Positions 37,605-60,692 of a stretch of DNA of 64,000 nt are shown here, piece by piece. Numbering within the stretch: position 1 is the first letter of the stretch; each line of letters starts with the position of its first letter. The position numbers and the translations under genes are program-made. The notes below the pieces were generated by a model. That model was not told where the DNA came from. It searched no databases and was given only the letters and a program-made list of their open reading frames with translations. This DNA is from Betaproteobacteria bacterium (GTDB lineage Bacteria > Pseudomonadota > Gammaproteobacteria > Burkholderiales > Thiobacillaceae), in NCBI GenBank assembly GCA_020061585.1, contig JAGUXX010000145.1, positions 21,278 to 85,277 on the forward strand. The letters run 5' to 3'.

Positions 37605-37901
37605 ATGTCCATGCGTCCGTCCGTTGCTCTCGACATGAAGCGAAATGCAGTACGTGAAGCCGCCAGCCGCTTCCACACGGCGAACCCGCGCGTGTTCGGT
37701 TCGGCCCTGCATGGCACCGACCGTGACGGAAGCGACCTCGACCTGCTGGTTGATGCCTTGCCAGGGGCAACGTTGTTCGACCTGGGTGGTTTGCAGTACG
37801 AGTTGGAAACGCTGCTCGGCGCCCAGGTCGATTTGCTGACCCCGACAGACCTGCCCCCGAAATTTCGTTCCAAGGTGCTTGCGGAAGCGCAGCCGGTATG
37901 A
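37605..37901 (+). CDS. MntA-like nucleotidyltransferase antitoxin
   Basis: RVFGSALHGTDRDGSDLDLLVDALPGATLFDL (GSx10DxD nucleotidyltransferase motif). Confidence 0.85.
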   Translation: MSMRPSVALDMKRNAVREAASRFHTANPRVFGSALHGTDRDGSDLDLLVDALPGATLFDLGGLQYELETLLGAQVDLLTPTDLPPKFRSKVLAEAQPV

Positions 37902-37933
37902 AGGTGAATCGACTTTCCGATTAACTCGAACAC

Positions 37934-38266: not shown

Positions 38267-38313
38267 CAGTGGATGAGCTTGGCAGTGCAAACCGTGGTCT
38301 GTCCCCTGTTGTT

Positions 38314-38337
38314 CTGCTGTTGTTACTGCTGTTGTTA
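38314..38337 (+). repeat. Two tandem copies of ctgctgttgtta
   Basis: Direct read of a 12-bp direct repeat in the intergenic region. Confidence 0.85.
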
Positions 38338-38403
38338 CTGATCGGGTCAACCAACACCTGCCCCCCCAGAAACCCCTGCAACAAAAATGAACTGAAATTC
38401 CTC

Positions 38404-38423
38404 AAAACTTGATAAAACTTGAT
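38404..38423 (+). promoter_or_regulatory. Tandem decamer aaaacttgat x2 upstream of the XRE-ImmA gene (candidate operator)
   Basis: Direct read; abuts a TTGATT-16 bp-TATAAT promoter-like pair (TATAAT at 38441-38446). Confidence 0.5.
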
Positions 38424-38453
38424 TGCACGCCTTTTCCAAATATAATTTCGTGC

Positions 38454-41531: not shown

Positions 41532-43276
41532 TGCCACGTCAACGTGCCGGCGTCCTGGCGGTCCGAGCCGTAAACCAATACCGTCGCCGGGATGTACTTT
41601 CCTACCTGGCCCTGCGTTATTACCTGAACAACGAAGCCGCGCGCACGGATCGCTGGGCGAACGAAGTCGCTACAGACCTGGTGTTGAAGCGTTCAGATCA
41701 GCCATATTTCCGGGCGTACCACTTCAAGGATGGAAACCACCGGATGGGAGTGGAACATCGCCCGATGTTTCTTCCTTGTGCGAATGAAGCCTTGGCCGAG
41801 GCAGCGCTCCTTGCCGAATGTGCCCGCCACCCAATAGTGTTTGGTAATCCTGATTTCGTATTCAGCTACCAACTGGCGACCGGGGAAGATCGCTCGGGGA
41901 TTTTTGGTCATTACTCTGCCGGCCTTCGCAATCGCCATGATGCTATAGCCCAGGCATGCGATGACTGTCCTGAAGGAACTGTCCGCTACCTCGACCTGAA
42001 GAAATTCTATCCATCTGTTCACCCCGATCTGGCATTGAAAGCATGGCGCAAGGCCGCTGACCAGGCAGAAATCGCGCCTCGGTGGAGGGAGTTGGGGGAC
42101 AAGTTCATTGGCGACCATGCCAAAGCAACGGATGGCCAGAAGCCCAGCATACTGACCGGCCCGATGTTCAGCCATCTGATCGGCAACCTGGTACTCCGCG
42201 ATATCGACGCTCAGCTTGCTGGCCTCAATGGCGTTAAATATTTCCGTTATGTCGATGACATCACGCTGGTAGGACGTGACGAGCAGATCAGGGCTGCGGT
42301 CAAGACAATACGGTCGATCCTTGGGGAGCTTGGCCTCAAGGCGCACGACGACGACTCGCCCAAGAGTTTGATCGTACCCTGCTCGGAATGGGTTCAAGGC
42401 AGGCATGACTTTCAAGATCGTCGTCGGCCGGTATCGTGGAAAACACTAATCGGTGACCTCAAGAGGCACCTACTTGCCCATCCTGATGCGCGAGATTCGC
42501 TTCATGATGCCTTTGTCGGTGAAGGCATGCGCATCCCTGTTCGAGACTACTCCGAGGCTATTTTCGAGCGAGGCTACCTGCAAAAAATTCAAGAATGGTC
42601 GCGGTTCCGCTGGTTCTGGCGAAACAAGCGGAAGGTCTCTACTGATTCCCTGATTGATCAGGCACGACAACTGCGAATCCAGTTTGAATCTGAATTTAAG
42701 GAACTCGTGGGGGAATACCAATCTGCCAACACTTATGGCAAGAAACGGCTCACCCCAAAGATCAGGTATCGCTCTGGGCGTCTTACCTACTTGGCTACGG
42801 ACGACGCATTGTTCGATCTGGCGAAAATTGCTGACTCTGTTCCCGAGCTCCATCTACAGTCGATGGTCATGGCTGCGACGGCAACAAGGAAGTTAGACGG
42901 GCTCCTGGAACTTGGAACCAATGCCGCTCAGGCGGTTGCTCAACCGCTCAGGGCTGCCGGCAAAACTGCTCATATTTCACTGCAAAGTCTTTCCGATGCA
43001 CAGATGCAAGCCCTGGCGGTTTTTCAATTGAACGGTGTGGCTGTCCAGCGTCCACCCACTCTTGATGACCAGCGATCCGAAATGCTCGTTTTTTCCGAGC
43101 AAGGAGGTACGCCGAAATTGATGAGGTCTCCAGACAAGTTCATTAGAGAAATTGCCTGCTTGCATGGCCTGAGTAAGCTGCCGCGGCATCCCTCAATCCT
43201 AGAAAGTGTGTTTGATGAGGATGAAGAGCTAGCAGTGGACGCTGTGGAACAGTTGCAAGAATCCATTTCGCTGTGA
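41531..43276 (+). CDS. Reverse transcriptase (RNA-directed DNA polymerase), non-intron, candidate defence RT
   Basis: RT motif A VRYLDLKKFYPSVHPDLALKAW; motif B ILTGPMFSHLIGNLVLRDIDAQL; motif C YFRYVDDITLVG (YVDD); no maturase or HNH motif noticed. Confidence 0.9.
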   Translation: MPRQRAGVLAVRAVNQYRRRDVLSYLALRYYLNNEAARTDRWANEVATDLVLKRSDQPYFRAYHFKDGNHRMGVEHRPMFLPCANEALAEAALLAECARHPIVFGNPDFVFSYQLATGEDRSGIFGHYSAGLRNRHDAIAQACDDCPEGTVRYLDLKKFYPSVHPDLALKAWRKAADQAEIAPRWRELGDKFIGDHAKATDGQKPSILTGPMFSHLIGNLVLRDIDAQLAGLNGVKYFRYVDDITLVGRDEQIRAAVKTIRSILGELGLKAHDDDSPKSLIVPCSEWVQGRHDFQDRRRPVSWKTLIGDLKRHLLAHPDARDSLHDAFVGEGMRIPVRDYSEAIFERGYLQKIQEWSRFRWFWRNKRKVSTDSLIDQARQLRIQFESEFKELVGEYQSANTYGKKRLTPKIRYRSGRLTYLATDDALFDLAKIADSVPELHLQSMVMAATATRKLDGLLELGTNAAQAVAQPLRAAGKTAHISLQSLSDAQMQALAVFQLNGVAVQRPPTLDDQRSEMLVFSEQGGTPKLMRSPDKFIREIACLHGLSKLPRHPSILESVFDEDEELAVDAVEQLQESISL

Positions 43277-44831: not shown

Positions 44832-45110
44832 ATGAGCACCTTGAACCTCTCGAAAACGGAACGGATTGATGTGCGCACCAGCAGTGCCGTGAAGCAACTA
44901 CTGCAGGAGGCTGCTGCTGCCTGTCACAAGAACGTTAGTGAGTTTCTTCTGGACGTGGGTGTGACAGCCGCCAACCAAGCGTTAGCAGACCGTCGCCACT
45001 TCACTCTCAACGATGAACAGTGGCAAGCGTTTAAGGACGCACTGGATCGACCCGTCAACACCAAGCCGCGTCTGAAGAAACTGATCAGTGAGCCCGGAGT
45101 GCTGGGTTGA
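44832..45110 (+). CDS. DUF1778 (TacA-like RHH) antitoxin
   Basis: LSKTERIDVRTSSAVKQLLQEAAAACHKNVSEFLLDVGVTAANQALADRRHFTLNDEQWQAFKDALDRP. Confidence 0.92.
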   Translation: MSTLNLSKTERIDVRTSSAVKQLLQEAAAACHKNVSEFLLDVGVTAANQALADRRHFTLNDEQWQAFKDALDRPVNTKPRLKKLISEPGVLG

Positions 45111-45613
45111 GTGCTGGGTATGAACCTGTCCGCAAACTTACGGCACAGGACCTGCTCGATGGGTTCGACTGTGGCCAGCCGGCACTGAACCAATTCTTGC
45201 AGCGCTACGCTCTGGTCAATCAGAAAGCCAACAGCGCGCAAACTTACGTCTGCTGCCAAGCAGGCGAAGTTGTGGGCTTCTACAGCCTCGCGGTCGGCAG
45301 CGTCGATCCGGAGAGTGCGCCTCCAAGGGTTATGAAGGGCTTGGCCCACCATCCGGTACCCATGATGATTTTGGCCAGACTCGCCGTCGATCAGAGGCAT
45401 CAAGGTAGGGGCCTCGGGAAAGCACTACTCAAGGACGCCCTGCTGCGTACTGCTCAGGCCGCCGACATTGCCGGTATCCGCTGCCTGCTGGTACATGCCA
45501 AGGATGATGCGGCTCGCCAGTGGTACGAAGCCTGGGAGTTCGAGCCAAGTCCGACCGACCCCTATCACCTTTTCCTGATGCTTAAGGATCTCAAAGCAAT
45601 ACTGGCCGGATAA
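45107..45613 (+). CDS. GNAT-family (TacT-like) acetyltransferase toxin
   Basis: FDCGQPALNQFLQRYALVNQKANSAQTYVCC... ILARLAVDQRHQGRGLGKALLKDAL; TTG start overlapping the antitoxin stop. Confidence 0.92.
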   Translation: MSAGYEPVRKLTAQDLLDGFDCGQPALNQFLQRYALVNQKANSAQTYVCCQAGEVVGFYSLAVGSVDPESAPPRVMKGLAHHPVPMMILARLAVDQRHQGRGLGKALLKDALLRTAQAADIAGIRCLLVHAKDDAARQWYEAWEFEPSPTDPYHLFLMLKDLKAILAG

Positions 45614-46040
45614 ACGTGGCGGGGTTGAGATGGAACGGCTGGCGCCATTCGATTGGCATCAGTGGCGTCAAGCGGACCATGACGCGCTACGTTTTCTCTC
45701 CATGCACAGCGCCAAAGGTCTGGAGTTCCCCTGCGTGGCAATAGGCGGGTTGGGTGAGTTGAAGAAGGCCGAAGCGATCGAAGACGACGTGCGCCTGACC
45801 TACGTCGCCATCACGCGCGCAACGCGCGAGGCGTTTATCACTTACTCGAACATGTCCGAGCTGGTGGGGCGGCTGGTGGCTGCGCTTGCAGGCCAAGTAC
45901 GACACCGAACGGACGCGGGAGTCCATGGCCGAAGTACTGGCGGCGATCAAGCCGCTCAAAATTCTGGAGCAGGTGTGAGGGTGGAACGTAGACAGGCTCC
46001 TATTGATCCGGCCCAATTAAACCGAGAATGCTCGCCGAGG

Positions 46041-46099
46041 CGTAGGGTGCGCCGTGCGCACCACCATCCAGCCAATCGGTGCGCACGGCGCACCCTACG
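46041..46099. repeat. Perfect inverted pair of the dispersed 22-mer cgtagggtgcgccgtgcgcacc
   Basis: Arms 46041-46062 and 46078-46099 are exact reverse complements; single copy also at 35508-35529. Confidence 0.95.
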
Positions 46100-46282
46100 G
46101 TTTCGCGGATAATTCTGGCCGAATCAATAGTCACATTTGGTCTAGCAAGATTCACACAATCAGCAACAATACTGAAAAATCAGTTGGACGCGCCTGTTGG
46201 TGCGACCGGATGAGTGCCTGGCGTGAAGCGATGACGCAACAGCCCATGGCCCGCGAAGCGAAGCAGGGAAAAGGTAGCCCGC

Positions 46283-47206
46283 ATGTCAGAGAACAACGGC
46301 GATGCCGTGCCAACGAATGAATTCGACGACGCCGACACGGCGATCGATTTCTCCATTCCGTTCGTCCCCGAATCTCTGACACAGCTTTACTACACGCCCG
46401 CACTGGCGCGACTGAGCGCCGCCCAGCGTTTGCGCTACAACCAACTCTACGCCGCGCATATCAACGAACAGTTCATGTTCTTCGAACACGACATAGGCAA
46501 CGCCATTTCGCGCGCCTTGCTGGCGTCCGGTGCGCTGAAGCAGCAAGGGCTGCGAGATCGACTGCGGGGGATGGTCGATGATGAAGAGCGGCACCAGGGC
46601 ATGTTCGAGTCGATCAACCGACGCGCCTTTCCCGAACTTTATGCACATTGCCGACATGTCTTCATTCGTCCTTCGGCCATCGCGCGCCACTTGCTCAATG
46701 CCTGCGTCCAGCGCCCGAAATCCATGACCTTCGTGATCTGGCTCGCCTTCTTTCTCGAAGAGGCGTCGGCGGAGTTCTCGAAAGCCGTCATCAAGTTCGC
46801 CAGGGAAGGCGCGGCCATCGAAGCGAACTTCCTGACCGTGCATGTTCGCCATCTGCGCGACGAGGTTCATCACGTCAAGCTTTATCCGGAGATCGTCCGT
46901 GCGGTGCTGTCCGACAGTTCCGCGCTGGCCCGCAAGATCAACGGCGCGTTGCTGGCGCGGCTGATGCGCGAGTTCCTCGCGCCGAAACGCTCCGGCATCG
47001 CCGTCATTGACCGGTTGGTGCACGAGTTCCCCGACTTGAAGGCAATCCATGACGATTTGCGCCGCGATGTCCGCTCGCTTGCCGGTTCGCCGGCGTTCTA
47101 TGACGCCTTCTTCGCCGCCGCCAAGCTGCCGTCCTTGCACAACATGTTCGACGAGTACCCCGAGTTCGCCTGGTCGGCGGCCGGGGCTGCCGCAAGGCAT
47201 CGGTGA
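46283..47206 (+). CDS. AurF-like diiron oxygenase / ferritin-like protein
   Basis: NEQFMFFEHDIGNAI, GMVDDEERHQGMF, FLEEASAEF, HLRDEVHHVKLYPEIV: E, ExxH, E, ExxH-type ligands as in AurF-family N-oxygenases. Confidence 0.75.
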   Translation: MSENNGDAVPTNEFDDADTAIDFSIPFVPESLTQLYYTPALARLSAAQRLRYNQLYAAHINEQFMFFEHDIGNAISRALLASGALKQQGLRDRLRGMVDDEERHQGMFESINRRAFPELYAHCRHVFIRPSAIARHLLNACVQRPKSMTFVIWLAFFLEEASAEFSKAVIKFAREGAAIEANFLTVHVRHLRDEVHHVKLYPEIVRAVLSDSSALARKINGALLARLMREFLAPKRSGIAVIDRLVHEFPDLKAIHDDLRRDVRSLAGSPAFYDAFFAAAKLPSLHNMFDEYPEFAWSAAGAAARHR

Positions 47207-47212
47207 TTGGCG

Positions 47213-47995
47213 ATGAGCGCCGCCGCAGCCATCGAAACCCGTCGGGATCGGCACGATCCGGCAAAGCCGGCTTACCGGTCGCAAGTTGTCCCCACCCGCG
47301 AACTCGGGGAAGGACGCATTGCCGAGATGTCGACGCTCTACCTCGAGAACTATGCGGGCAGCAATGGCGCCTTGTTCCGCGCCGACCTGATGGATAAGGA
47401 CCATGCCCTGCTGGTATTCAGCGGCGATGCGCTGGTCGGCTTCACGACGATCAAGCACTACGAAGTCGAGTGGCAAGGGAAAGACACGGGCATCGTCTTT
47501 TCCGGCGACACCATCGTCGACCCGCGTCATTGGGGGCAACGCGAGCTGGCCTTCGCCTGGCTGGAGTTCGTCGGCGGCATCAAGGCGGCTGCGCCCGAAC
47601 GGCCTCTGTACTGGTTTCTGCTGGTCAAGGGACACCGCACCTATCGCTACCTGCCGGTCTTCGCCCGCCAGTTCCACCCTTGCTGGCAGGCGCAGGAGAC
47701 CGAAGCCAGGCGACTGAAGCCGCTGGCGGATTTCCTTGCCACCGCGCGCTTCGGGGCCGACTACAAGCCACAAGCCGGCGTCGTCGAGTTCGCCGAATCG
47801 CGCGGCCATTTGCGACCGGCGATCGCCTGCCCGGACAGCGACGAACTCGAACGCCAGGATGTCCGCTTCTTCCTCGCCCGCAATCCCGGCTACCTGCAAG
47901 GAAACGAGCTGGTCTGCGTCTGCGAGCTGGCGGTCGACAACCTGAAACCCTTGGCCGCGCGATTCTTCCAGCGCGCCGGTGGGGCACGGCGATGA
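47213..47995 (+). CDS. GNAT-like acyltransferase
   Basis: LYLENYAGSNGALFRADLMDKDHALLVFSGDALVGFTTIKHYEVEWQGKDTGIVFSGDTIVDPRHWGQRELAFAWLEFV. Confidence 0.55.
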   Translation: MSAAAAIETRRDRHDPAKPAYRSQVVPTRELGEGRIAEMSTLYLENYAGSNGALFRADLMDKDHALLVFSGDALVGFTTIKHYEVEWQGKDTGIVFSGDTIVDPRHWGQRELAFAWLEFVGGIKAAAPERPLYWFLLVKGHRTYRYLPVFARQFHPCWQAQETEARRLKPLADFLATARFGADYKPQAGVVEFAESRGHLRPAIACPDSDELERQDVRFFLARNPGYLQGNELVCVCELAVDNLKPLAARFFQRAGGARR

Positions 47996-49353
47996 CCGAG
48001 ATAGCGGTCGCTCCCGCGTCGGCACGACAAACTGACTGGCTCGCCGAATTGCTGGCGGCCAACGCGTCGACCGCGTACCTCCGTCAGCAAGGCAGCCCGC
48101 TCACGCTCGACGCCTTTCGCGCACAAGTCCCGTTCTGCGATTACGACAGTCTGACGCCCTGGTTGCGGCGCATCAGTGACGGCGAAAGCGACGTCCTGTT
48201 TCGCGGCCGGCCCTGCGCCTATGAGAGAACCGGCGGCAGTGCCGGCGGCAGCAAACTCATCCCCTATTCCGCCGCCGGCATCGCCGATTTCCGTCGCGCC
48301 GTGTCGCCCTGGCTGGCGGCAACCCTGGAACGGCACGCCATCACCGGCACGGTCTACTTTTCGATCAGCCCGGTCGCGCGTGCCGCCGAACGGATCGGCG
48401 AGGTTCCGGTCGGGCTGCCCGATGCGGCCTATCTCGACGAGGCAACCTGCCAAGTGTTGATGACACGCAGCGCCGTGCCGTTTTCCGTCGCCGAACTTAG
48501 CGATGTCGCCACCTGGCGCCAGCAGACGCTGCATCACCTCGCCAGCGCTTCGACGCTTGAGCTGATCTCGGTCTGGAGCCCGACCTTCCTGCTTACGCTG
48601 CTGGAAGGCCACGCGGAAATCGCCGCCGCCTGGCCCCGTTTGAAGGTGATCAGCTGTTGGGCCGACGGTTCGTCTCGACCCTACGCCGCCGAGCTCGCCG
48701 CCCGTTTTCCCGGCGTCGCCATCGAGCCAAAGGGGTTGATCTCGACCGAAGCCGTGGTGACCGTGCCGAACCAGGGGGGCGAAGCGGAACTCATTGCCAA
48801 CGGTTTCTTCGAGTTCCTGCGTGACGACCAGGCCTTCCTCGCCCACGAGCTTGAACCCGGTGGCGAGTACGAGGTCGTGGTGACGACGGCCAGCGGCCTC
48901 TACCGCTATCGCAGCGGCGACGCCGTATGCTGTCGCGGCTACGCCGCATCGGGCCGGCCGATACTCGGTTTCGTCGGTCGCTCCGGTCTGCACTGCGATC
49001 TGGTTGGCGAAAAACTGAGCGAGTCCTTCGTCTCGGCTGCGCTGGCCTTTCTGCCAGGCTTTTCGCTGCTGATTCCCGACGCGCGGCGGCGCGCTTATGT
49101 TCTGGTCCGTGAGCACGATACCGCGCCCGAGGATCTTGCCCGGCTGGAGGCGGCCTTGTGCCGCAACCCCCAATACGCCTACGCCAGAACACTCGGCCAG
49201 TTGTCGCCGCTGACCATGCTGCGAGTCCCCCGCGCCTGGGCGACCTACGAAACAACCCTGTTGACACGCGGCGCCAGGCTCGGCGACATCAAGCTGACCG
49301 CGCTGCGTCCCGAGTCATTCTGGCTAGACATTTTCGAACGGGAGTGCCCATGA
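47992..49353 (+). CDS. GH3-family (auxin-responsive GH3-like) adenylating ligase
   Basis: PFCDYDSLTPWLRRISDGESDVLFRGRPCAYERTGGSAGGSKLIPYSAAG; LKVISCWADGSS; GLYRYRSGDAVCCRGY; ILGFVGRSGLHCDLVGEKLSESFV: GH3 motif series. Confidence 0.82.
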   Translation: MTEIAVAPASARQTDWLAELLAANASTAYLRQQGSPLTLDAFRAQVPFCDYDSLTPWLRRISDGESDVLFRGRPCAYERTGGSAGGSKLIPYSAAGIADFRRAVSPWLAATLERHAITGTVYFSISPVARAAERIGEVPVGLPDAAYLDEATCQVLMTRSAVPFSVAELSDVATWRQQTLHHLASASTLELISVWSPTFLLTLLEGHAEIAAAWPRLKVISCWADGSSRPYAAELAARFPGVAIEPKGLISTEAVVTVPNQGGEAELIANGFFEFLRDDQAFLAHELEPGGEYEVVVTTASGLYRYRSGDAVCCRGYAASGRPILGFVGRSGLHCDLVGEKLSESFVSAALAFLPGFSLLIPDARRRAYVLVREHDTAPEDLARLEAALCRNPQYAYARTLGQLSPLTMLRVPRAWATYETTLLTRGARLGDIKLTALRPESFWLDIFERECP

Positions 49354-50738
49354 AAATCGCCCTGATATCGCCGAAAGGCCCCTTGTACCGCCACCGTGGC
49401 GGCATCTTCAAGAAGTCGCTGCGCTACCAGCCGCTGACCTTGACCACGCTGGCCGCTCTGGTGCCGCCGGAGCTCGATGCCGAGATCGCGCTCTACGACG
49501 AGGGCATCATCGAATTGCCGGACGAGATCGACGCCGACCTGATCGGCCTGACCGTGATCACCGGCACGGCGCCGCGCGCCTACGAACTCGCGGCGCAGTT
49601 CCGCGCCCGCGGCAAAACCGTGGTGCTCGGCGGCCCGCACGTCACGCTGCTGCCGGACGAAGCGGCCCAGCATGCCGATTCGATCTGTGTCGGGTATGCA
49701 GAGGATAGCTGGCCGCAGCTGCTGCGCGACTTCGCCGCCGGCAGCCTGAAACCGGCCTATTTCCAGAGCCCGGACTTCTCGCTCGACCGGCCGGATATGC
49801 CTTTCGCCAAACGCGAGCTGTTCGATACACGCAACTTCCTGACCCAGGCGGTGTTCGAGGCGACGCGTTCCTGCGCCCACGATTGCGAGTTCTGCGTCGC
49901 GCCCGCCGCCTGGGGGCGCAAGCAATACCAGAAGCCCATCGATTGGGTGATCCGCGACATCCAGCAGTTCGGCCAGAAAAAAATCCTGTTCGTCGATCTC
50001 AACCTGATCTCCGACAAGGACTACGCCCGCGAGTTGTTCACCCGGCTGATCCCCCTCAAGATCGAGTGGTTTGGCCTGTCCACGGTGCTGATCGCGCACG
50101 ACCGGGAATTCATGGAACTGGCCGCCCGCAGTGGCTGCAAGGGACTGCTGCTTGGCCTGGAGACGGTAACCCCCGACAACCTGCGAGATGCCCGCAAACG
50201 GTTCAATGCCTCGGTCGATTTCCGCTCGGTGATCAATGACCTGCATCGCCTGGGCATCGCCATTCAAGGCTGTTTCGTGTTCGGACTCGATCACGATACG
50301 CCGGAAGTTTTCGACACCACGATGGCGTTCGCCATCGACGCCGGCATCGACCTGCCGCGCTACGCCGTGCTGACGCCGTTTCCGGGCACGCCCTTGTTCA
50401 CCCGACTGGAGCGCGAAGGCCGGATATTGACCCGCGACTGGTCGCTTTACGACGCACAGCATGTGGTGTTCCAGCCGCGCAACATGTCGGCACGGGAACT
50501 CTCCGAGGGCCACGAACGGGCCTGGAAACAGACCTACCGCTGGTCGGCGATCGGGCGTCGGCTGTGGCGGGCGGGCAACCTGCGGCCGCTCGCGCTGACG
50601 GCCAATACCGGGTATCGCTTCTATGCCCACAATCTGCACCGCTTCTACAATTGCGATTGGCCGATCGACCTCCTCGATCGGCCCCGGGCCGGGCCTGCCG
50701 CCGTCGCCGCCGACACCGCCAGAATCGTATGCGGCTGA
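49350..50738 (+). CDS. B12-binding domain radical SAM protein
   Basis: N-terminal cobalamin-like domain (VVLGGPHVTLLPDEAAQHADSICVGYAED); CAHDCEFC (CxxxCxxC). Confidence 0.9.
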   Translation: MKIALISPKGPLYRHRGGIFKKSLRYQPLTLTTLAALVPPELDAEIALYDEGIIELPDEIDADLIGLTVITGTAPRAYELAAQFRARGKTVVLGGPHVTLLPDEAAQHADSICVGYAEDSWPQLLRDFAAGSLKPAYFQSPDFSLDRPDMPFAKRELFDTRNFLTQAVFEATRSCAHDCEFCVAPAAWGRKQYQKPIDWVIRDIQQFGQKKILFVDLNLISDKDYARELFTRLIPLKIEWFGLSTVLIAHDREFMELAARSGCKGLLLGLETVTPDNLRDARKRFNASVDFRSVINDLHRLGIAIQGCFVFGLDHDTPEVFDTTMAFAIDAGIDLPRYAVLTPFPGTPLFTRLEREGRILTRDWSLYDAQHVVFQPRNMSARELSEGHERAWKQTYRWSAIGRRLWRAGNLRPLALTANTGYRFYAHNLHRFYNCDWPIDLLDRPRAGPAAVAADTARIVCG

Positions 50739-52075
50739 CCCTGATCCAGCCGGCCATCGGCCACCGTGCCGGTGAGCGCTATATCCGCTCCTGGCAGATG
50801 GAACCCCTGCCGATTGCCACGCTGGCCGGCCTGACGCCAAACAGCGTCGAACTGGCCTTCTTCGATGACCGCATGGAGGCCATCGACTACGACCGTCCCT
50901 GCGACGCCGTCGCCATGCCGGTCGAAACCTACACGGCTCGGCGCGCCTACCAGATCGCCAGCGAATACCGCCGGCGTGGTGTGCCGGTGATTGTCGGCGG
51001 CTTCCACCCCAGCGCCCTGCCCGATGAGGCACAGCGCTACGCCGACACGGTCGTCGTCGGCGAAGCCGAAGGCATCTGGCCCGAAGTGCTCGACGACCTG
51101 GCCCACCGCACCCTGCGCCCGCGCTATGTCGCGGCGCGCGGCGATCTCGCGGCGATACGCGTCGATCGCTCCCTGTTCGCCCAGCGTCGTTACCTGCCGA
51201 TCGGCCTGATCGAGACCGGCCGTGGCTGCCGTTTCCCCTGCGAGTTCTGCTCGATCCAGTCGTTCTTCGGCCGCAGCCACCGCAATCGGCCCATCGCCGA
51301 CGTCATCGCTGAACTGCGCGGCTTGAAACACGAGAAGCGCCTGTTCTTCTTCGTTGACGACAATTTCGCCGGCGATCTCCAGGCCGGCAAGGAACTCCTG
51401 CCGGAACTCGCCCGCCTGAACATCCGCTGGATCACCCAGCTCAGCATCAATGCCGCGCACGACGAAGCGTTCCTGTCGCTGCTGGCGAAAAGCGGCTGCA
51501 AGGGCGTGCTGATCGGCTTCGAATCGCTGGATGCCGACAATCTGCGGCAGATGAACAAGCGCTTCAACCTGATGAAAGGCGGCTATCACGTCGCCCTCGC
51601 CAATCTGCGCAGACACGGCATCGCCGTCTACGGCACCTTCGTGTTCGGCTACGACAACGACGTCGAATCTTCCTTCGACGCCGCCGTCGATATGGCCATT
51701 TCGGAAGGCATGTACATCGCGGCGTTCAATCACATGACCCCGTTTCCGGGTACGCCGCTGTACCGCCGCCTGCAAGAGGAAGGACGTTTGCGCTACGCAG
51801 CCTGGTGGCTGGACCCCGCCTACCGTTACAACGAGGTGCCGTTCCGGCCGCAACGCCTGACGCCCGAGCAGGTCACCGGCGGCTGTCTCGCCGCCCGCCG
51901 CCGCTTCTACAGTTGGCCGAGCATCCTGCAGCGGGCGCTGGGCAACCGTAGCGATCTGTTCATGCTGCGCAATTACCTGCCGATCAACCTGATGCACCGC
52001 CAGGACGTGTCGCGGCGCAACGGTTATCCCCTGGGCGACGAGAGCGGGTCAGGCCGGATGGTTGAATCGGCATGA
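50729..52075 (+). CDS. B12-binding domain radical SAM protein
   Basis: VIVGGFHPSALPDEAQRYADTVVVGEAE; GRGCRFPCEFCSIQSFFG (CxxxCxxC); ATG at 50729 in the larger ORF. Confidence 0.9.
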   Translation: MRLTLIQPAIGHRAGERYIRSWQMEPLPIATLAGLTPNSVELAFFDDRMEAIDYDRPCDAVAMPVETYTARRAYQIASEYRRRGVPVIVGGFHPSALPDEAQRYADTVVVGEAEGIWPEVLDDLAHRTLRPRYVAARGDLAAIRVDRSLFAQRRYLPIGLIETGRGCRFPCEFCSIQSFFGRSHRNRPIADVIAELRGLKHEKRLFFFVDDNFAGDLQAGKELLPELARLNIRWITQLSINAAHDEAFLSLLAKSGCKGVLIGFESLDADNLRQMNKRFNLMKGGYHVALANLRRHGIAVYGTFVFGYDNDVESSFDAAVDMAISEGMYIAAFNHMTPFPGTPLYRRLQEEGRLRYAAWWLDPAYRYNEVPFRPQRLTPEQVTGGCLAARRRFYSWPSILQRALGNRSDLFMLRNYLPINLMHRQDVSRRNGYPLGDESGSGRMVESA

Positions 52076-53118
52076 TCCGCTTCGCCGCCGCGACTCCGGG
52101 TGACGATGCCGAACTGCGCGCGCTGCTGCGTGACCACAGCATGGCATCCTGGGTCACCATGGCGGTCGAGCGCGAACCCGCGTTCTTCTCGGGCATGGAC
52201 CGCTTCGGTCGCGACCATGCGGTGATCGCGCGCGACGCGAGTCGTGCCGTCGGCATGTACGTGCGTTCCGAGCATCCGGTCCATCTCAACGGCCAACCGG
52301 CGCGGATCGGCTACCTCGGCGGGCTGCGCATCGATGCCGGCTATCGGCGGCGGGTACGGGCGCTGCGCGATGGTTTTGCGGCGGCTTTCGCGGCCGATGA
52401 AGCCGCCGCCATCGGCTTCTACTACACCTGCATCGCGTCCGAAAACCGGGCAGCGCGACGCCTGCTTGAAGCGCAGCTGGACGGGTTGCCGAGCTACGTC
52501 GAGGCGGGCGAGGTGGTGGCGCTGGCGATGCCGCGCGTTCGGGGAAAGCGGTTGGGCCACTGGCAGCCGATGCGCCAGGATGAATGCGACGCGGTTTGCG
52601 CCCTGCACAACACCGTCGCCGCGTCGCGCCAGTTCTCGCCGGTGCTGGACCCGAAGACCCTGGCCGCGACCGGCGCCGATTTCTTCGTCTGCCGCGACGG
52701 GTCAGGGCAGCCCGTGGCATGCATGGCACTGTGGAACCAGAATGCCTACAAGCAAGTCGTCGCCCGCGCCTACCGCCAACCGCTTGCCGCCTTGCGACCG
52801 CTGTACAACCTGGTTGCCGCGGCGCGTCGACGCGTCACCCTGCCGCGCCCCGGCAATGCGGTTGACCAGACCTATCTGGCGTTTCTGGCCGCCGACGCGA
52901 AGCGCGCCCCCCGGCTGCCGGAACTCGTTGCCGACGCGCTCTCGCTGTGCAGTACGGCCGTGCTGACCCTGGGCATTTCCAGCCGCGATCCGGGGCTGCA
53001 AGAGCTCGCCACCCGCTTCCGCCCAGCGTCATACGCGATGACGGTCTACACCGTCGCCTACGGCGAGCCACCCGACCTCGACGGACGACCGGTGCAGCCG
53101 GAAGTCGCCGTGCTGTGA
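52072..53118 (+). CDS. GNAT-family N-acetyltransferase
   Basis: MIRFAAATPGDDAELRALLRDHSM ... ARIGYLGGLRIDAGYRRRVRALRDGFAAAFAADEAAAIGFYYTCIASENRAARRLLEA. Confidence 0.75.
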   Translation: MIRFAAATPGDDAELRALLRDHSMASWVTMAVEREPAFFSGMDRFGRDHAVIARDASRAVGMYVRSEHPVHLNGQPARIGYLGGLRIDAGYRRRVRALRDGFAAAFAADEAAAIGFYYTCIASENRAARRLLEAQLDGLPSYVEAGEVVALAMPRVRGKRLGHWQPMRQDECDAVCALHNTVAASRQFSPVLDPKTLAATGADFFVCRDGSGQPVACMALWNQNAYKQVVARAYRQPLAALRPLYNLVAAARRRVTLPRPGNAVDQTYLAFLAADAKRAPRLPELVADALSLCSTAVLTLGISSRDPGLQELATRFRPASYAMTVYTVAYGEPPDLDGRPVQPEVAVL

Positions 53119-53975
53119 TGAGGCAAACGTCTTCACGGCGCATCCTGCGCCATCGCGCGGACTGGCGAACCCTGGCATTGGTCGGCCTGGCCTGCGCCGC
53201 GTTGATCCTGCCTCCTGTCCTTGGCCCCGATGCGATACCGGCCGGCCCGTGGATCGCCGTCTCGGCCATGCTGTGCTTCATCGCCAACATCGCCAATCAC
53301 AACCACATGCACCAAGCGACGTTTCAGCGCCGTGTTTTGAATCAGGCATTCAACCTCGTGCTCACCCTCTGCCGTGGGCATACGGCGAGCGGCATCATCG
53401 TGCCCCACCACCTCAACCACCACGTCGAATCCTGCGGCGCACGCGACTGGATACGACCACAACTCGCCGGTCGGGGAATCGGCTGGCTGCGCCTGGTGCG
53501 CTTCATCGTCGCCGCCAGCGTCAACATGCTCATCGAGCGGCGACATCCCGCCGCGCCGCGTCTGGCCCCACGCGCCGAGCTTAGCCGCCGTCACGAACAA
53601 CGGGTGCTCGCGGCATTCATCCTGCTCGGGCTGCTTGCGGACTGGCAGGTTTTTATGCTGTTCAACGTCCTACCCTGGGCGCTCGGGCTGGCGCTGCTGG
53701 TCGGCGTCAACCTGCTGCAGCACGATGCCTGCGAGCCGGGCCTGGTGGTTGGCGGCTCGCGCGATTTCGTCGGACGAGTCGGCAACTGGCTGTGCCTCAA
53801 CAACGGCTATCACACCGCCCACCACCTGTCGCCCGCGACCCACTGGAGCAAGTTGCCCGACCTGCACGCAACCCTCGCCGAGCGGATTCGGGCGCAACGG
53901 CTGGAATACCCGTCCGTTCTGGCGTTTCTCTGGCGCTTCGGCTGGTCGAGAACGCCTTCGGCCCGGAGCGTCTGA
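53118..53975 (+). CDS. Fatty acid desaturase-like membrane di-iron protein
   Basis: His clusters NHNHMHQATF, HHLNHHVES, NNGYHTAHHLSP with TM segments. Confidence 0.82.
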   Translation: MRQTSSRRILRHRADWRTLALVGLACAALILPPVLGPDAIPAGPWIAVSAMLCFIANIANHNHMHQATFQRRVLNQAFNLVLTLCRGHTASGIIVPHHLNHHVESCGARDWIRPQLAGRGIGWLRLVRFIVAASVNMLIERRHPAAPRLAPRAELSRRHEQRVLAAFILLGLLADWQVFMLFNVLPWALGLALLVGVNLLQHDACEPGLVVGGSRDFVGRVGNWLCLNNGYHTAHHLSPATHWSKLPDLHATLAERIRAQRLEYPSVLAFLWRFGWSRTPSARSV

Positions 53976-54920
53976 GTGGTCCAGTATTACCTCTGCCCAC
54001 CGGTCGACGAGGTCCGTCTCGCGCGGGAAGTCGCGCCGCTGGTCCGCAGTTTCAACGGCGCCGTTCCAAGTGTGGAACGCCTGATCGAACTGACTCGCGA
54101 GCACGGACTCGACACCTCGACAATGGCGCTTTACGAAGCATTGCGGACGGCGCCGGCCAACGCCGAGTTCATCGCCCGCATCGAGGCCGAGCCGGTCGTT
54201 ACTGAACCCGCAACGTCCCCGGCCAAGATACTGGCGGTCCCCGCGCTCTTCTACCAGCACTACCCGGAAACCGGCGGCGATGTGGCGCTGTCCATCGGTA
54301 TCGCCAGAGCCTGCGGCTTCGAAGTCGAAACCATCCCGATCCAGAGCCTTGGAACCATCACCGAGAACGCCCGCATCATTCGCGACTACCTTGAACGCGA
54401 ACCCGCCGAGCGGGTCTGGCTGCTCACGGCGAGCAAGGGTGGCGCCGACTTCCGGGTCTACCTGGAGCACTATGCCGACGCCGCGGCGATCAAACGGATC
54501 GCCGGCTGGATCAACATCTGCGGCCTGATCGAAGGCTGCGACATCGCCGACTTCGATATCGCCACGCCGGCGCGGCGGCTGAAGTTCCAGGCAATCTGCC
54601 GCGCCTTCGGCACCCGCTTCGACCTGCTGCGCGAACTGTCCACGGCTCACGCATACTGGCGCGAACCATTGCGTCTGCCGCCGCACCTGCGGGTGTTCAA
54701 CCTGGCGGCGATTCCCTTGCCCAGCCACATCCAGAAATCCTTGATCAACCGCTATCAGGCGATCAGCGACCTGGGCCCGAACGACGGCATGGTCGCCTGT
54801 CGGCGTACCGTCATCGACGCCGGCCTGACGCTCCCCTTCCTCGGCTACGACCATTTTTTTCGCGGGCCGCAGATCGCGCCGGTGCTGTATCGCTTCTTTT
54901 CTTACCTCAGGCGGCAATAG
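53976..54920 (+). CDS. Putative alpha/beta-hydrolase-like protein of unknown function
   Basis: ILAVPALFYQHYPETGGDVALSIGIARACGFEVETIPIQS ... VWLLTASKGGADFRVYL (nucleophile-elbow-like). Confidence 0.45.
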   Translation: MVQYYLCPPVDEVRLAREVAPLVRSFNGAVPSVERLIELTREHGLDTSTMALYEALRTAPANAEFIARIEAEPVVTEPATSPAKILAVPALFYQHYPETGGDVALSIGIARACGFEVETIPIQSLGTITENARIIRDYLEREPAERVWLLTASKGGADFRVYLEHYADAAAIKRIAGWINICGLIEGCDIADFDIATPARRLKFQAICRAFGTRFDLLRELSTAHAYWREPLRLPPHLRVFNLAAIPLPSHIQKSLINRYQAISDLGPNDGMVACRRTVIDAGLTLPFLGYDHFFRGPQIAPVLYRFFSYLRRQ

Positions 54921-54923
54921 CGT

Positions 54924-55484
54924 ATGGATCGACGTACGGCAGCGCTTACATGCGCGTTTGTCCTGGTTGCGCCGGCACAGGCTGGAGACGAGCGCGCAAT
55001 CCGCGAAGTCTTCGCCAGCGTCGAACGCGCGGTCCAACAACGCGACACCAAGACCTTGATCGATAGTGCGACCGACAACCATCTGATGATCTCCAAGAAC
55101 GGCGAAACGGTCGTCGGCAAGCCGGCGCTGGCCGCCTACCTGGACAAGATGATCGGCTACGCAGCTTCGATCAAGTCGCTGCAATCGACCGTCGCGATGT
55201 CTCCGGATATCCGATTTCACGGCGACACCGCCATCGCGCATGGTCGATCCAGGGACCATTACGCCTTTGCCGACGGCCTCGAACTGGACCTGACCACTTA
55301 CTGGACGGCCACCCTGGCGCGCGAGGACGAGCGTTGGCGGATCGCCGCCGTGCACTACTCGTTCAATCTGTTTGACAACGGAATGCTCGACGCGGCGCGG
55401 CAGGGCGCCCTGGTCGCCGCGGCGGGCGGGGCGTTGGCCGGCTGCATCGCCGGATTGTTGTTTTTCCGCCGTCGGCATATATAG
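54924..55484 (+). CDS. SnoaL/NTF2-like protein with signal peptide and C-terminal TM
   Basis: IREVFASVERAVQQRDTKTLIDSATDNHLMISKNGETVVGKPALAAYLDKMIG ... C-terminal GALAGCIAGLLFFRRRHI. Confidence 0.7.
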   Translation: MDRRTAALTCAFVLVAPAQAGDERAIREVFASVERAVQQRDTKTLIDSATDNHLMISKNGETVVGKPALAAYLDKMIGYAASIKSLQSTVAMSPDIRFHGDTAIAHGRSRDHYAFADGLELDLTTYWTATLAREDERWRIAAVHYSFNLFDNGMLDAARQGALVAAAGGALAGCIAGLLFFRRRHI

Positions 55485-55554
55485 TCATCCCGGATTTGAC
55501 CTGTCCCGTGCACAGTTTCAACCGCGGATACCAACACTCAGGAGACGAAACACC

Positions 55555-56166
55555 ATGCGAAATTTACTGCGTTGCAGCCTCATTGCCTTGTTGTTCCTGA
55601 CCCATGCAGTCGCCTGGGCGGCCACCGCGCCGCCCCTCGATCCGGCTGGCGGTCGGGTCGAGGACCGGCAAGCCCTGCGGGTTCTGCTCGAACGCATCGA
55701 ACAGGCCACCGCGGCGCTCGATATCGATGCGGCCACGGCGCTGATGCACCCCGACGTCATCGTCACCTGGCAGAACGCCGAGGTATCGAAAGGCCTTGAA
55801 CAGGTTCGCGCCTACCACGATCGCATGATCAAAGGCGCCAGTCCGATCGTCAAAAACTATAGCGTCAAGGCGAACCTGGGCGGCCCGGCGGTGTTTTATG
55901 GCGACAGCGCCGTCGCCTGGGGTACGACTGTGGAGCGCTTCGCGTTATCTGACGGCCTCAAGTTCACGCTCCATGCCAACTGGAGCACGACGATGGTCAA
56001 GCAGGACGGTGAGTGGAAGATCGCCGCGCTGCACTTCTCGACCAACCTGTTCGACAACCCGCTGCTGAATAACGCCGAGCGCCTGGTCTGGATTGCCGGA
56101 CTGGTCGGCCTGCTGGCCGGGTTTCTGGCCGCCTGGCTGCTGTCGAGGTTGCGCAAAGCCAGGTAA
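55555..56166 (+). CDS. SnoaL/NTF2-like protein with signal peptide and C-terminal TM (paralogue of the preceding gene)
   Basis: RVLLERIEQATAALDIDAATALMHPDVIVTWQNAEVSKGLEQVRAYHDRMIKG ... LVGLLAGFLAAWLLSRLRKAR. Confidence 0.75.
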   Translation: MRNLLRCSLIALLFLTHAVAWAATAPPLDPAGGRVEDRQALRVLLERIEQATAALDIDAATALMHPDVIVTWQNAEVSKGLEQVRAYHDRMIKGASPIVKNYSVKANLGGPAVFYGDSAVAWGTTVERFALSDGLKFTLHANWSTTMVKQDGEWKIAALHFSTNLFDNPLLNNAERLVWIAGLVGLLAGFLAAWLLSRLRKAR

Positions 56167-57096
56167 GTGGTCGCGAACTCAGCGGAACAGCAGGTGATAC
56201 GCAACCGCTTCAACATTGCGCTGATCGCGATCGTCTATGCGATCGCGCTGGCGTTGCTCTGGTTGGGGTCGCGGGTCGACCTCTGGCTGGCGCTGCCCAT
56301 CGGCATCGTCTTTTCCTTTGTCCTGTTGACCAACTACGCGTTGATCCATGAGGCGGCGCACGACAATCTGAACTCGGACCCGACCTGGAATCGCTGGCTC
56401 GGGGTTCTCGTCGGCTTTCTGTTTCCGGTGCCGTTTTCGATGATCAAGGTCACCCACACGGTTCATCACTGCTGCAATCGGACGGATCACGAGATGTTTG
56501 ATCTGTACTACCCGGGCGACAGCCTGTTCATCAAACTCGGGCAGTGGTATGGCCTGCTCAGCGGCCTGTTCTGGCCCTGGATTCCGATCGGCGCGCTGGT
56601 CCTGGCGACTTTCCCGAAACTGCTGCGCATGGGGCCTTACCGGCGGGCGCGGACCACGGCCGTACTGTTCGACGATTTCGCCGAACATGGGGTCGGGCGT
56701 GTGCGCGTCGAGGTCATACTGACCCTGGCGTTCTGGGCCGGGCTGTTCGTGCTGCTCGATCTGTCCTGGCAGCCGGTGCTGATCATGTACGCCTGCTTTG
56801 CCTTCAACTGGTCGACGCGGCAGTACATCACCCACGCCTTCACCGAGCGGCATGTCATCAACGGCGCATTGAACCTGCGCGTCGGTCCGGTCATGTCGTG
56901 GATATTGCTCAAGGGCAACTGGGATCTGGTCCATCACCAGAAGCCCTGGCTGCCATGGAGCGAACTCGAACGCCACGGCAACGGCGCCTATTCCCCGGTC
57001 AGCATCTGGCGGCAATACCTGCGCATGTGGCGCGGGCCGGTGCCGGCGACCGCCCCTTCGCCGCAGCGCCTCAAGGCCGAACCAAGTCCCGATTGA
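56167..57096 (+). CDS. Fatty acid desaturase family protein
   Basis: NYALIHEAAHDNL, KVTHTVHHCCNR, NWDLVHHQKPWLPW His boxes; GTG start directly after the previous stop. Confidence 0.85.
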   Translation: MVANSAEQQVIRNRFNIALIAIVYAIALALLWLGSRVDLWLALPIGIVFSFVLLTNYALIHEAAHDNLNSDPTWNRWLGVLVGFLFPVPFSMIKVTHTVHHCCNRTDHEMFDLYYPGDSLFIKLGQWYGLLSGLFWPWIPIGALVLATFPKLLRMGPYRRARTTAVLFDDFAEHGVGRVRVEVILTLAFWAGLFVLLDLSWQPVLIMYACFAFNWSTRQYITHAFTERHVINGALNLRVGPVMSWILLKGNWDLVHHQKPWLPWSELERHGNGAYSPVSIWRQYLRMWRGPVPATAPSPQRLKAEPSPD

Positions 57097-57718
57097 GTTG
57101 CCGCCAGCGCGTGTCGACCACACACGCGGCCCAGGCCAGCGCGATACCGCCGGCGATATCGGCCAGATGGTGCTGGTGCACGAGCAGTACCGAAGCGCAA
57201 ATGGCCACGTACCAGACGCCGCCGAGCTGGCGAAGGTGCGTTGCCGCGACGCGGCCCGAAAGTGCGCGGAAGATCAGGGTGCTGTAGGCGATGTGCAGCG
57301 ACGGGACGGAATTGAACGGGCCATCGAGTTCCCACAATACGGAAAACAGCGCGTGGAACGCGCCCTCCGGTGGAATCCGTGGGAAGCCGCTGCGCACCGG
57401 AAAAACGATGAACAGCAGGCCGGCCGCCAGCGTTGCCAGCGCGATACGCCGACCGAGGGCGCGCAAGCCCTCGATGTTGCAGGCGAACAGCGGCAGCCAG
57501 AACAGCAGCGCGATCGAAAAGTAGATCAGGATCGCCCAAGGAACCAACGGAATCGCCAGTTCCCAGGCGAAATGCAGGCTCACATCCCGACCCGAGTTGG
57601 CCGCGATCCAGTTGGCGCCGCCATAGACGACGGTGAAGAGCAGCGTCAGCAGGACATACCGTCGCAGGAAGACGGCCCATCGCGCGCGGTTCGGCCACGT
57701 CCATGTCACCGACGCCAC
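57071..57718 (-). CDS. PAP2-superfamily membrane phosphatase / phosphotransferase
   Basis: LDGPFNSVPSLHIAYSTLIFRAL and LLVHQHHLADIAGGIALA PAP2 motifs; multi-TM. Confidence 0.8.
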   Translation of the reverse strand: MASVTWTWPNRARWAVFLRRYVLLTLLFTVVYGGANWIAANSGRDVSLHFAWELAIPLVPWAILIYFSIALLFWLPLFACNIEGLRALGRRIALATLAAGLLFIVFPVRSGFPRIPPEGAFHALFSVLWELDGPFNSVPSLHIAYSTLIFRALSGRVAATHLRQLGGVWYVAICASVLLVHQHHLADIAGGIALAWAACVVDTRWRQLNRDLVRP

Positions 57719-59409
57719 CCTGCGGGCTCGTTTCCGTAGCCGCCAGCATGGCTCGCCTCCCGACGCGCCATGTCATCGGCCAGCCGCCGGTCGATCCAGC
57801 CATGCAGAAGATCGAAACCCCGCGTCAAGAGTCGATGCTGGTTCACCGTCGCGCTCTGGAAATCGAGCAGGTCGTCGCGTTGCGACGGGGAATAGCGGAG
57901 CAAGCCGGAGTAGAAGGTCGCCGCGTTCAGCGCCACGCGGTTCTCGATCAGTTGGCGATTGAGTCGGCGCACATGGCGCCCGACATCGGCCGAGGACATG
58001 CTGGCATGCCGCCAGTAGGGGGCAACCGTGCGCGGGTTGGAATCGACGTGCAGTCCGAACCGCGCCCGGTTGGCCGCATTGAGCACGGGCACCCCGGCGA
58101 CGCGGGTGCTGAAGATCGCCAGGAAGTAGAAATCCGGCGGATGGTCGCGCAGGAAGCGGTAGGTGGTGGCGAGACTCGCTTCGCTCTCGCCGGGAAAGCC
58201 GACCACCAGCGAAACCACGCTGGTCAACCCGACCGCCCGGCAATTGTCGAGCGCCTTGGCGTTGTCCTCGACACTGCACTGCTTGTTCATGTTCAACAGT
58301 ATCCGCGGGTCGCCGGACTCGATGCCGATCTGCACCTGATACGCGCCGGCCTCCCGCATCATCGCCGCAACATCGTGATCGGCGAGGTCGCTGGCGCGTG
58401 CATAGCAGATCCATTTGATGTCGATGTTTCGGCGCACGAGTTCGTCGCAGAGCGCCGACAGGCGCCGGCGCGGAATGGTGAACAAGGAATCGAGGCAGGA
58501 GATGAATTCGACACCGAGTTCGTCTCGATAGCGCTGCCAGTCATCGGCAATTTTCCGGGCACTCTTGTAGCGAAATTTCTCGTCGTCGAAGAGGTAGGGG
58601 TAGTTACAGAAATTGCAGCGGTAGGGACAGCCGCGCACGCTTTCGTAATGCACGAGCGGGAAGCGGCGACCGTGATCGCGCGAGGCCCCGAGCCAATCCG
58701 GCGTTGCCAGACTGTCGAGCGAACGGGTCGCCGGCACGCCGCTGCGCAGGATCGTCGAATGCCGGCGCCGCTCGATGCTGGCCGGTGGTGCTGCGGAAAA
58801 CGTCTGGAACCCGGCGCGGAGGTAGGACGCAAGCATCGGCACGAGAATCTCGCCATAGCCGACGGCAAGAACGTCGACGCCGGGGATGCCGTCGCCCTCC
58901 TCCGCAAGGATGGACGCCAGCGCGCCGCCGAGGACGATCCGGTTGTGCGGACGAATGATCCGCCGCAGGACCGGCTCCACCTCGCCCAGATCGCGTAACA
59001 GAGTCGCCGACAGGAAGACCAGCGCACAGGCCGCGAGCTTGGCGCGCATCGCACGGTCATCGCGAAACACCTCGTCGACTGTGGCGATTGCGTAAGGAAG
59101 CCCTTCCGCCCGCAGCAATGTCGTCAACACCACTTCGGTCAGTTCCGGAACATCCATGTTTTCGGTGCGCGAAAAATACGCCCTGACCCCGGCCGCCAGG
59201 CGTCGGCCGGCGACCAGACGATGCCAGCCGCTCAGCACGATGGACTCGCCGATGATCGCCTTGCTTTTCAGGTCCAGCCAGGCCGATTCCGATGCACGCC
59301 ACTGCGCCGCCTGCTTGCGCAGCGCACGCCAGGGCGACGACTCCTTTTCGTTGAGCAGTCCGCCGGTAATGACCAGAACGGCTGGCGGCTGGCCCTGCAA
59401 ACCAATCAT
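57706..59409 (-). CDS. B12-binding domain radical SAM protein
   Basis: GYGEILVPMLASYLRAG; SVRGCPYRCNFCNYPYLFDDEKFRYKSARKIADDWQRYRDELG (CxxxCxxC). Confidence 0.9.
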   Translation of the reverse strand: MIGLQGQPPAVLVITGGLLNEKESSPWRALRKQAAQWRASESAWLDLKSKAIIGESIVLSGWHRLVAGRRLAAGVRAYFSRTENMDVPELTEVVLTTLLRAEGLPYAIATVDEVFRDDRAMRAKLAACALVFLSATLLRDLGEVEPVLRRIIRPHNRIVLGGALASILAEEGDGIPGVDVLAVGYGEILVPMLASYLRAGFQTFSAAPPASIERRRHSTILRSGVPATRSLDSLATPDWLGASRDHGRRFPLVHYESVRGCPYRCNFCNYPYLFDDEKFRYKSARKIADDWQRYRDELGVEFISCLDSLFTIPRRRLSALCDELVRRNIDIKWICYARASDLADHDVAAMMREAGAYQVQIGIESGDPRILLNMNKQCSVEDNAKALDNCRAVGLTSVVSLVVGFPGESEASLATTYRFLRDHPPDFYFLAIFSTRVAGVPVLNAANRARFGLHVDSNPRTVAPYWRHASMSSADVGRHVRRLNRQLIENRVALNAATFYSGLLRYSPSQRDDLLDFQSATVNQHRLLTRGFDLLHGWIDRRLADDMARREASHAGGYGNEPAGWRR

Positions 59410-60692
59410 CGATCGACCCGCCGCAGCATTGGGCCGCCCGAAGGGACGATGATCACGAGTTTTCGCACCGGCCGGATCTTCGCCGGCTCGACCAGTTCGA
59501 AGCGGCCATGTCGCAGCAGGCAGGCAAGCAACAGCACCATCTGACGCAGGGCCATGGGCATGCCGGCGCAGACCCGATCGCCCAGCCCGAAGGGAAAGTA
59601 GGCGTGGCGATAGCGGGATGAATTGGCCAAAAACCGGTCGGCCACGAACGCATTCGGGCGGTCGAAAACCTGCGGATTGCGATGCGCCAGATACATGCAG
59701 GGCAACACCCGGGTGTCGCGGAGCACCGCATGGCTACCGACCTGCGTGGCCGCGACCGCATGGCGGGTCAGATGCACGACGACCGGACAGAGCCGCATGG
59801 ATTCTTCGATTGCCGAACGCAGAAAGGGCAACGCCTCGGGCGGCGCGGATTCCCCGGCCGTGGAGACTTCGGCCCGCGCCCGTTCGCTCGCCGATCCGTC
59901 GGCGAGCAGGTGGGTCAGCGCCCAGGCCAGGCTCGCCGCCGTCGTGTCATGACCGAAGAGCAGGAAGGTCACGGTTTCCGAAACGATTTCGTCATCGCTG
60001 AGGGGTGCGCCATGTTCTGGCATCGCATGCGCAATCCGCGAAAACACGGATCCGTCCGGGGCTCGGCGTACCTCGCGTAACTGTCTCCGGATGAAGTCGT
60101 GCACCTGCGAGCGATTGATGAGGAAACGACCCCAAGGCGAGATGCGCCCGAGATCGACATGCAGGATCTTCAGGAACAACACCGCCGCCTGGCTGAAGGA
60201 CGACTTCCAGGCCTCGATCAACTGGAACGCCTCGTTATGGCGCTGCTCCGGCAGGTCGCCGAAGATCAGTTCGATGATGGCATGCAGCGTGATGCGGCTC
60301 AGGAACTCGCCGGCATTGAAGACCTCGTGCATGCCGATTTGCGGAATCAGCGCATCGGCCCATTTGCGGTTGACCCGGTCGATCGTCTCCGCATTGCCGG
60401 AAAAGAAGTGCGGCAACAGCACGCTGCGATGGACGCGATGCCGTTCGCCTTCCAGCGCGATCAGGCTGTGCTCGCCCACGACCGGTCGCAGCGCCTCCGT
60501 ACCCCGCCCGCCGATGAGATCCGGATTCCGCGAAATCTCGCCAATCAATACGGGATCACCGGTGACCAGGCATGAGCCCATCACCGGCAAGCGGGTCGTA
60601 AACGTCGTGTATCCCGAGGCGAGCGCGCCATCGAGAACGCCATATGGCGATCGCATCCACTGCAAAGGGCTAATGGTGAGGCGCGGAATCAT
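59406..60692 (-). CDS. Cytochrome P450
   Basis: I-helix VTFLLFGHDTTAASLAWAL; ExxR EESMRLCPV; heme loop YFPFGLGDRVCAGMPMAL. Confidence 0.95.
   Translation of the reverse strand: MIPRLTISPLQWMRSPYGVLDGALASGYTTFTTRLPVMGSCLVTGDPVLIGEISRNPDLIGGRGTEALRPVVGEHSLIALEGERHRVHRSVLLPHFFSGNAETIDRVNRKWADALIPQIGMHEVFNAGEFLSRITLHAIIELIFGDLPEQRHNEAFQLIEAWKSSFSQAAVLFLKILHVDLGRISPWGRFLINRSQVHDFIRRQLREVRRAPDGSVFSRIAHAMPEHGAPLSDDEIVSETVTFLLFGHDTTAASLAWALTHLLADGSASERARAEVSTAGESAPPEALPFLRSAIEESMRLCPVVVHLTRHAVAATQVGSHAVLRDTRVLPCMYLAHRNPQVFDRPNAFVADRFLANSSRYRHAYFPFGLGDRVCAGMPMALRQMVLLLACLLRHGRFELVEPAKIRPVRKLVIIVPSGGPMLRRVDR

Follow-up and report, generated by a model that had tools for sequence, protein, structure and literature searches.

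Fourteen enzyme genes between positions 46283 and 60692 of the window (the whole 64,000-nucleotide stretch of DNA analysed here) form a coherent unit, and may, at about even confidence, constitute a horizontally moving cluster, free of polyketide synthase (PKS) and nonribosomal peptide synthetase (NRPS) genes, for an oxidised acyl-amide lipid of the N-acyl amino acid or N-acyl amine type at the membrane. The conserved core of this cluster is a GNAT pair and a GH3 ligase (GNATa-GH3-GNATb), which recurs across several phyla. The enzyme families themselves are known; their combination appears to be undescribed.

Organization and gene content of the locus

Eleven genes on the + strand (46283–57096) have overlapping or abutting ends and face a − strand trio, PAP2-radical SAM-P450, that ends at 60692 and in which rSAM3 and P450 overlap by 4 bp. 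The ORFs match the first-pass annotation in the eleven same-strand genes, the overlapping or abutting starts it named, and the convergent trio with its 4-bp overlap. The families it listed are also present, with AurF, GH3, the two fatty acid desaturases, and P450 recognized by Pfam, though GNATa, GNATb, ABH, SnoaL1, and SnoaL2 were overlooked. Its description of a biosynthetic cluster lacking PKS and NRPS agrees with the Pfam search, in which none of the fourteen genes carries a domain of either kind. No transporter or regulator gene occurs among the fourteen, and no resistance gene or exporter in the cluster; several membrane segments are predicted among the encoded proteins.

The first gene (46283–47206, +) encodes an AurF-family diiron oxygenase, likely an N-oxygenase, which scores 37.4 bits against the Pfam AurF gathering cut-off of 29.6. 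In an alignment of homologues, residues E68, D100-E101xxH104, E159/E160, and H190xxD193-E194xxH197 correspond to the AurF site (PMC12101540), with the 3-His/4-Glu ligand set and the DExxH and HxxDExxH motifs kept. Ahead of ExxH, the window protein and the Accumulibacter copy (L016) have Asp, and the other homologues have Glu. The 3-His/4-carboxylate site of AurF is largely unique to N-oxygenases, and CylC halogenases carry QExxH (PMC12101540); the window protein, with D100-E101xxH104, does not match the CylC dimetal halogenase motif. Because the AurF ligand set is kept and the halogenase glutamine motif is absent, N-oxygenation is the best guess, and we favor a putative N-oxygenase. The diiron site thus supports the earlier assignment as far as an N-oxygenase-like enzyme, and oxidation of an amine is predicted from sequence. 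AurF was found in 5 of the loci collected, as compared with 83 for GNATa, and is an optional tailoring gene outside the conserved core.

GNATa (47213–47995, +) is a predicted GNAT-fold acyltransferase with a C-terminal extension; it has no Pfam match, and a PDB sequence search identified no relevant relative, but its AlphaFold2 model (pLDDT 92) returned GNAT acetyltransferases as the best Foldseek matches. GNATb (52072–53118, +) appears to be a double GNAT-like acyltransferase, as a homologue matches Acetyltransf_1 and a profile comparison recovers its Pseudomonas/Burkholderia counterpart (E 6.5e-21).

The GH3-type acid-amido synthetase (47992–49353, +) scores 89.7 bits in Pfam GH3, contains both the N-terminal and central domains, and matches plant GH3 structures. 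Two of its three nucleotide motifs are kept, motif II (KGLxxTE, with its Glu) and motif III (GLYRYRSGD); motif I is altered (TGGSAGGSK) and one residue shorter. The earlier assignment as a GH3 ligase agrees with the domains and with motifs II and III. OlsH, a bacterial GH3 that makes N-acyl ornithine together with OlsI, an alpha/beta-hydrolase O-acyltransferase, requires the motif I serine S115 for activity (PMC12493201). Gly81 occupies this position in the window protein, and Gly is likewise present there in most of the radical SAM-type and UnbV-type members shown (defined below). The score against the lyso-ornithine lipid synthetase model (NCBIfam NF052613) is 37.9 bits, far from the equivalog cut-off of 620. 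Judged by these features, the window protein may work as a GH3 ligase but is not an OlsH.

The first-pass annotation counted three B12/radical SAM proteins. This is secure for rSAM1 (49350–50738, +) and rSAM2 (50729–52075, +), in which both radical SAM and B12 domains exceed the Pfam cut-offs; at least 90% of 35 sequences share the rSAM1 CxxxCxxC cysteines (C175/C179/C182), and C167/C171/C174 are conserved in rSAM2. It is less so for rSAM3 (57706–59409, −), where the radical SAM domain scores 74 bits and the cysteines C261/C265/C268 are conserved, but the B12 domain reaches only 22.5 bits against a cut-off of 32.1. rSAM3 adjoins PAP2 and P450 in relatives; P450 (59406–60692, −; Pfam 180 bits) is its neighbor in four other genomes (L106, L107, L108, and L109). 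The PAP2-type membrane phosphatase/phosphotransferase (57071–57718, −) has its catalytic residues conserved in PSLH and HxxxD (H142, H183, D187) but falls below the Pfam cut-off (22.1 vs. 27.2) and also below that of PAP2_3.

Both membrane fatty acid desaturases, Des1 (53118–53975, +) and Des2 (56167–57096, +), match Pfam and retain conserved histidine boxes in alignments; Des1 is optional. In Pseudomonas members, PAP2 and fatty acid desaturase domains are fused in one protein (L066, 8334–9845). ABH (53976–54920, +), a predicted lipase-fold alpha/beta-hydrolase or acyltransferase, belongs to no Pfam family. Its Ser153 is invariant, all homologues reaching that far have PNDG with its Asp and DHF/DHY with its His, and its AlphaFold2 model (pLDDT 88) matches bacterial lipases in Foldseek. 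Homology to the Burkholderia/Pseudomonas hydrolase is not claimed despite an SKGG elbow in both, as profile comparison gave a probability of 2%. The remaining two genes encode SnoaL/DUF4440 domain proteins recognized by Pfam: SnoaL1 (54924–55484, +) with a C-terminal membrane anchor (hydrophobic segment 161–182), and SnoaL2 (55552–56166, +) with an N-terminal signal-like segment and a C-terminal anchor (segments 5–24 and 177–200).

A UvrD-type helicase C-terminal domain fragment (45630–46112, +) lies directly upstream of the cluster, suggesting that its left boundary has been rearranged. Farther upstream, a TacA-like antitoxin gene overlaps a GNAT gene (44832–45613, +), likely a TacAT-type toxin–antitoxin pair. 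A reverse transcriptase of a candidate antiphage DRT family (41531–43276, +; PADLOC RT_UG36, 610 bits) is abutted upstream by a gene with no Pfam match (40563–41531), and genes for an AAA_16 ATPase and for an HTH plus M78 peptidase protein (36283–39578) are located near the lower-GC stretch that holds it; ATPase, peptidase, and reverse transcriptase possibly form one defence island. For the cluster itself, PADLOC returned only weak generic radical SAM matches, and a defence-system reading was rejected.

Distribution and mosaic structure

When one genome per species was scanned using an alignment of GNATa, the gene that defines the cluster family, at least 524 relatives were identified. The 80 best of these were retrieved and, being the most similar, are a biased set. 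Among these best 80 of at least 524, GNATa occurs in Pseudomonadota, Campylobacterota, Synergistota, Thermodesulfobacteriota, and Cyanobacteriota, as well as in Acidobacteriota and Planctomycetota in the form of metagenome bins that are possibly misassigned. Within the 53 well-flanked loci of this set, GH3 is near GNATa in 47 and GNATb in 41. The similarity bias is absent from an evenly drawn sample of 399 Pseudomonadota genomes, the window genome included; here GNATa was found in 5 of the 398 other genomes, with GH3 adjoining in all five, and rSAM1 at E < 1e-100 in the window genome and two others. The proposal that these genes form a unit, which the first-pass annotation would have abandoned had they not traveled together, is borne out by both samples.

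Of 23 genomes in the window's genus, the window's own alone has Des2, and the cluster is for this reason an accessory and probably transferred element. The nearest copy among the relatives compared is in Candidatus Accumulibacter vicinus UBA5574 (L016), with proteins 77–92% identical and a shared gene order that lacks Des1. The PAP2-rSAM3-P450 trio and a shared back half are present in Massilia glaciei and the gammaproteobacterium HyVt-540. A plasmid search with GH3 recovered a version of the cluster on an IncF plasmid of Citrobacter portucalensis, with rSAM1 72% identical and the order GNATa-GH3-rSAM-rSAM-GNATb-rSAM-rSAM-PAP2-SnoaL facing rSAM-desaturase. This plasmid locus (L014, NZ_CP134684.1, 14223–26318) contains five radical SAM genes, and its host came from a gull. 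Searches of viral contigs with rSAM1 found no relatives, and the Citrobacter cluster DNA had no match when searched against E. coli genomes.

Three layouts recur. The radical SAM type is arranged as GNATa-GH3-rSAM1-rSAM2-GNATb, often with two more radical SAM genes, a desaturase, SnoaL, and PAP2; the UnbV type as Rieske-f30-GNATa-GH3-GNATb-[NQR2/RnfD, FG-GAP, UnbV fusion]-Des1-ABH-SnoaL-Des2, facing PAP2-rSAM3-P450; and the Pseudomonas/Burkholderia type as a PAP2-desaturase fusion, GNATa-GNATb, hydrolase, PF10118 protein, desaturase, GH3, and Rieske. In UnbV-type relatives the fusion of NQR2/RnfD, FG-GAP, and UnbV_ASPIC domains (L109, 5315–8071; L107, 5674–8376; L012, 12073–14778) is found without rSAM1-rSAM2.

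The front of the window cluster (GNATa, GH3, rSAM1, rSAM2, GNATb) most closely resembles radical SAM-type clusters, and its back (Des2, ABH, PAP2, rSAM3, P450) most closely resembles UnbV-type clusters. Gene trees place GNATa with betaproteobacterial radical SAM-type clusters and Des2 with the UnbV type (99/99). Constraining Des2 with the radical SAM type was rejected (p-AU 0.0012), as was constraining GH3 and GNATb with the UnbV type (p-AU 0.0005 and 0.007, respectively), p-values somewhat weakened by the naming of the groups after synteny and a first tree had been viewed. These trees and AU tests support the window cluster being a mosaic of a radical SAM-type front and a UnbV-type back. Module exchange looks general, as other mixtures also occur, one of them joining Rieske and ABH to a front of the radical SAM type.

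Proposed product and alternative readings

A constant acyl-transferring and amide-forming core combined with an oxidative variable part, desaturases, PAP2, anchored SnoaL proteins, and a lipase-fold protein is most economically read as making an oxidised acyl-amide lipid; a membrane product also fits the lack of transporter and regulator genes and the several predicted membrane segments. Against this reading stand the altered motif I of GH3, its low score in the OlsH model, and the sub-threshold Pfam score of PAP2. In the putative pathway, Des1 and Des2 would modify a fatty acyl chain, GNATa would transfer an acyl group to an amine, and GH3 would adenylate a carboxylate with ATP and join a second amine to give an amide. 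GNATb would add a further acyl or acetyl group and ABH would trim or O-acylate; rSAM1 and rSAM2 would methylate or oxidise unactivated carbons independently of oxygen, and AurF would N-oxygenate a free amine. Completion of the molecule at the membrane would fall to PAP2, rSAM3, P450, and the two anchored SnoaL proteins. For the polyene-like metabolite raised earlier, no evidence was found.

That the fourteen genes are unrelated small operons lying side by side by chance is very improbable. The two convergent units and the optional status of Des1 and AurF would be compatible with such an arrangement, but it is already contradicted by synteny: the order is shared with Accumulibacter vicinus, the back half and trio with Massilia glaciei and HyVt-540, and the core is syntenic in many genomes. 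Recurrence of gene order in unrelated genomes argues for more than chance. A more serious alternative, to which we assign a clear minority of the probability, is a diffusible small bioactive molecule, an antibiotic or signal, whose fatty parts would act either as a tail or as a transient carrier. Antibiotic pathways commonly include N-oxygenases and B12 radical SAM enzymes, and the presence here of such enzymes, the patchy accessory distribution (as in Des2 within the genus), the plasmid carriage, and the mosaic tailoring genes are all consistent with a molecule of this kind; the cluster nonetheless has no exporter, resistance, or regulator gene, and several of its enzymes are membrane-bound.

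Distinctly unlikely is a modified membrane phospholipid, in which an N-acyl amide (ceramide-like) lipid would receive its head group from PAP2 acting as a phosphotransferase. The PAP2 of a relative does exceed the PAP2_3 cut-off (29.8 vs. 27) and gives a weak PAP2_C match, and OlsH/OlsI offer a precedent for amino lipids, yet the window PAP2 is below the cut-off for both models and no sphingoid-type synthase is present.

We also propose, tentatively and with less than even confidence, that the GNATa-GH3-GNATb core defines a large new PKS/NRPS-free family making a new class of acyl-amide lipids, in which the oxygen-independent B12 radical SAM pair and the Rieske plus NQR2/RnfD-UnbV module would be interchangeable. 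If so, this would be a widespread cluster family unlikely to be flagged by genome mining for assembly-line enzymes, with a tractable three-gene core, and would permit a direct test of whether the radical SAM pair and the UnbV-type electron-transfer protein replace each other.

Comparison with known systems

Searches of open-licence PMC papers found none describing a matching gene set, though a described member could exist; the statement of the first-pass annotation that it recognized no described cluster holds within the papers searched. The OlsH/OlsI ornithine lipid pathway of planctomycetes (PMC12493201) gives a GH3 and alpha/beta-hydrolase pair a lipid precedent: it is likewise bacterial, combines a GH3-type amide ligase with an alpha/beta-hydrolase-superfamily protein (ABH being likened to OlsI at the superfamily level only), and yields an amino lipid. 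However, the published pathway lacks the two GNATs, radical SAM enzymes, desaturases, AurF, P450, and PAP2, and the window GH3 differs in scoring far below the cut-off of the OlsH model and in its altered motif I.

Among ferritin-like diiron enzymes, the window protein resembles the AurF/N-oxygenase subfamily in its 3-His/4-Glu ligands, DExxH, and HxxDExxH, but differs in a context without PKS and in that a PDB sequence search with it returned no relevant match. CylC-type halogenase clusters of cyanobacteria (PMC8406957) similarly combine an AurF-like diiron enzyme and desaturases without a carrier protein, and their Rieske proteins also occur in the window's relatives; they differ in that D100 replaces the halogenase glutamine in the window AurF and a Rieske gene is missing from the window cluster.

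Ladderane-associated (TIGR04072) and hopanoid (HpnJ, HpnR) proteins are alike in B12-radical SAM architecture and lipid context. As candidate identities they were rejected, the best TIGR04072 score being 100 bits against an equivalog cut-off of 360 and those for HpnJ and HpnR falling far below their equivalog cut-offs.

Enediyne clusters, an identity likewise rejected here for want of the required genes, conserve UnbV-type proteins whose role is poorly understood. The UnbV-type relatives of the window are comparable to them in having one NQR2/RnfD, FG-GAP, UnbV_ASPIC protein. The window cluster, in contrast, has no PKS domain in Pfam, and so lacks the PKS of an enediyne gene cluster, and carries rSAM1-rSAM2 instead.
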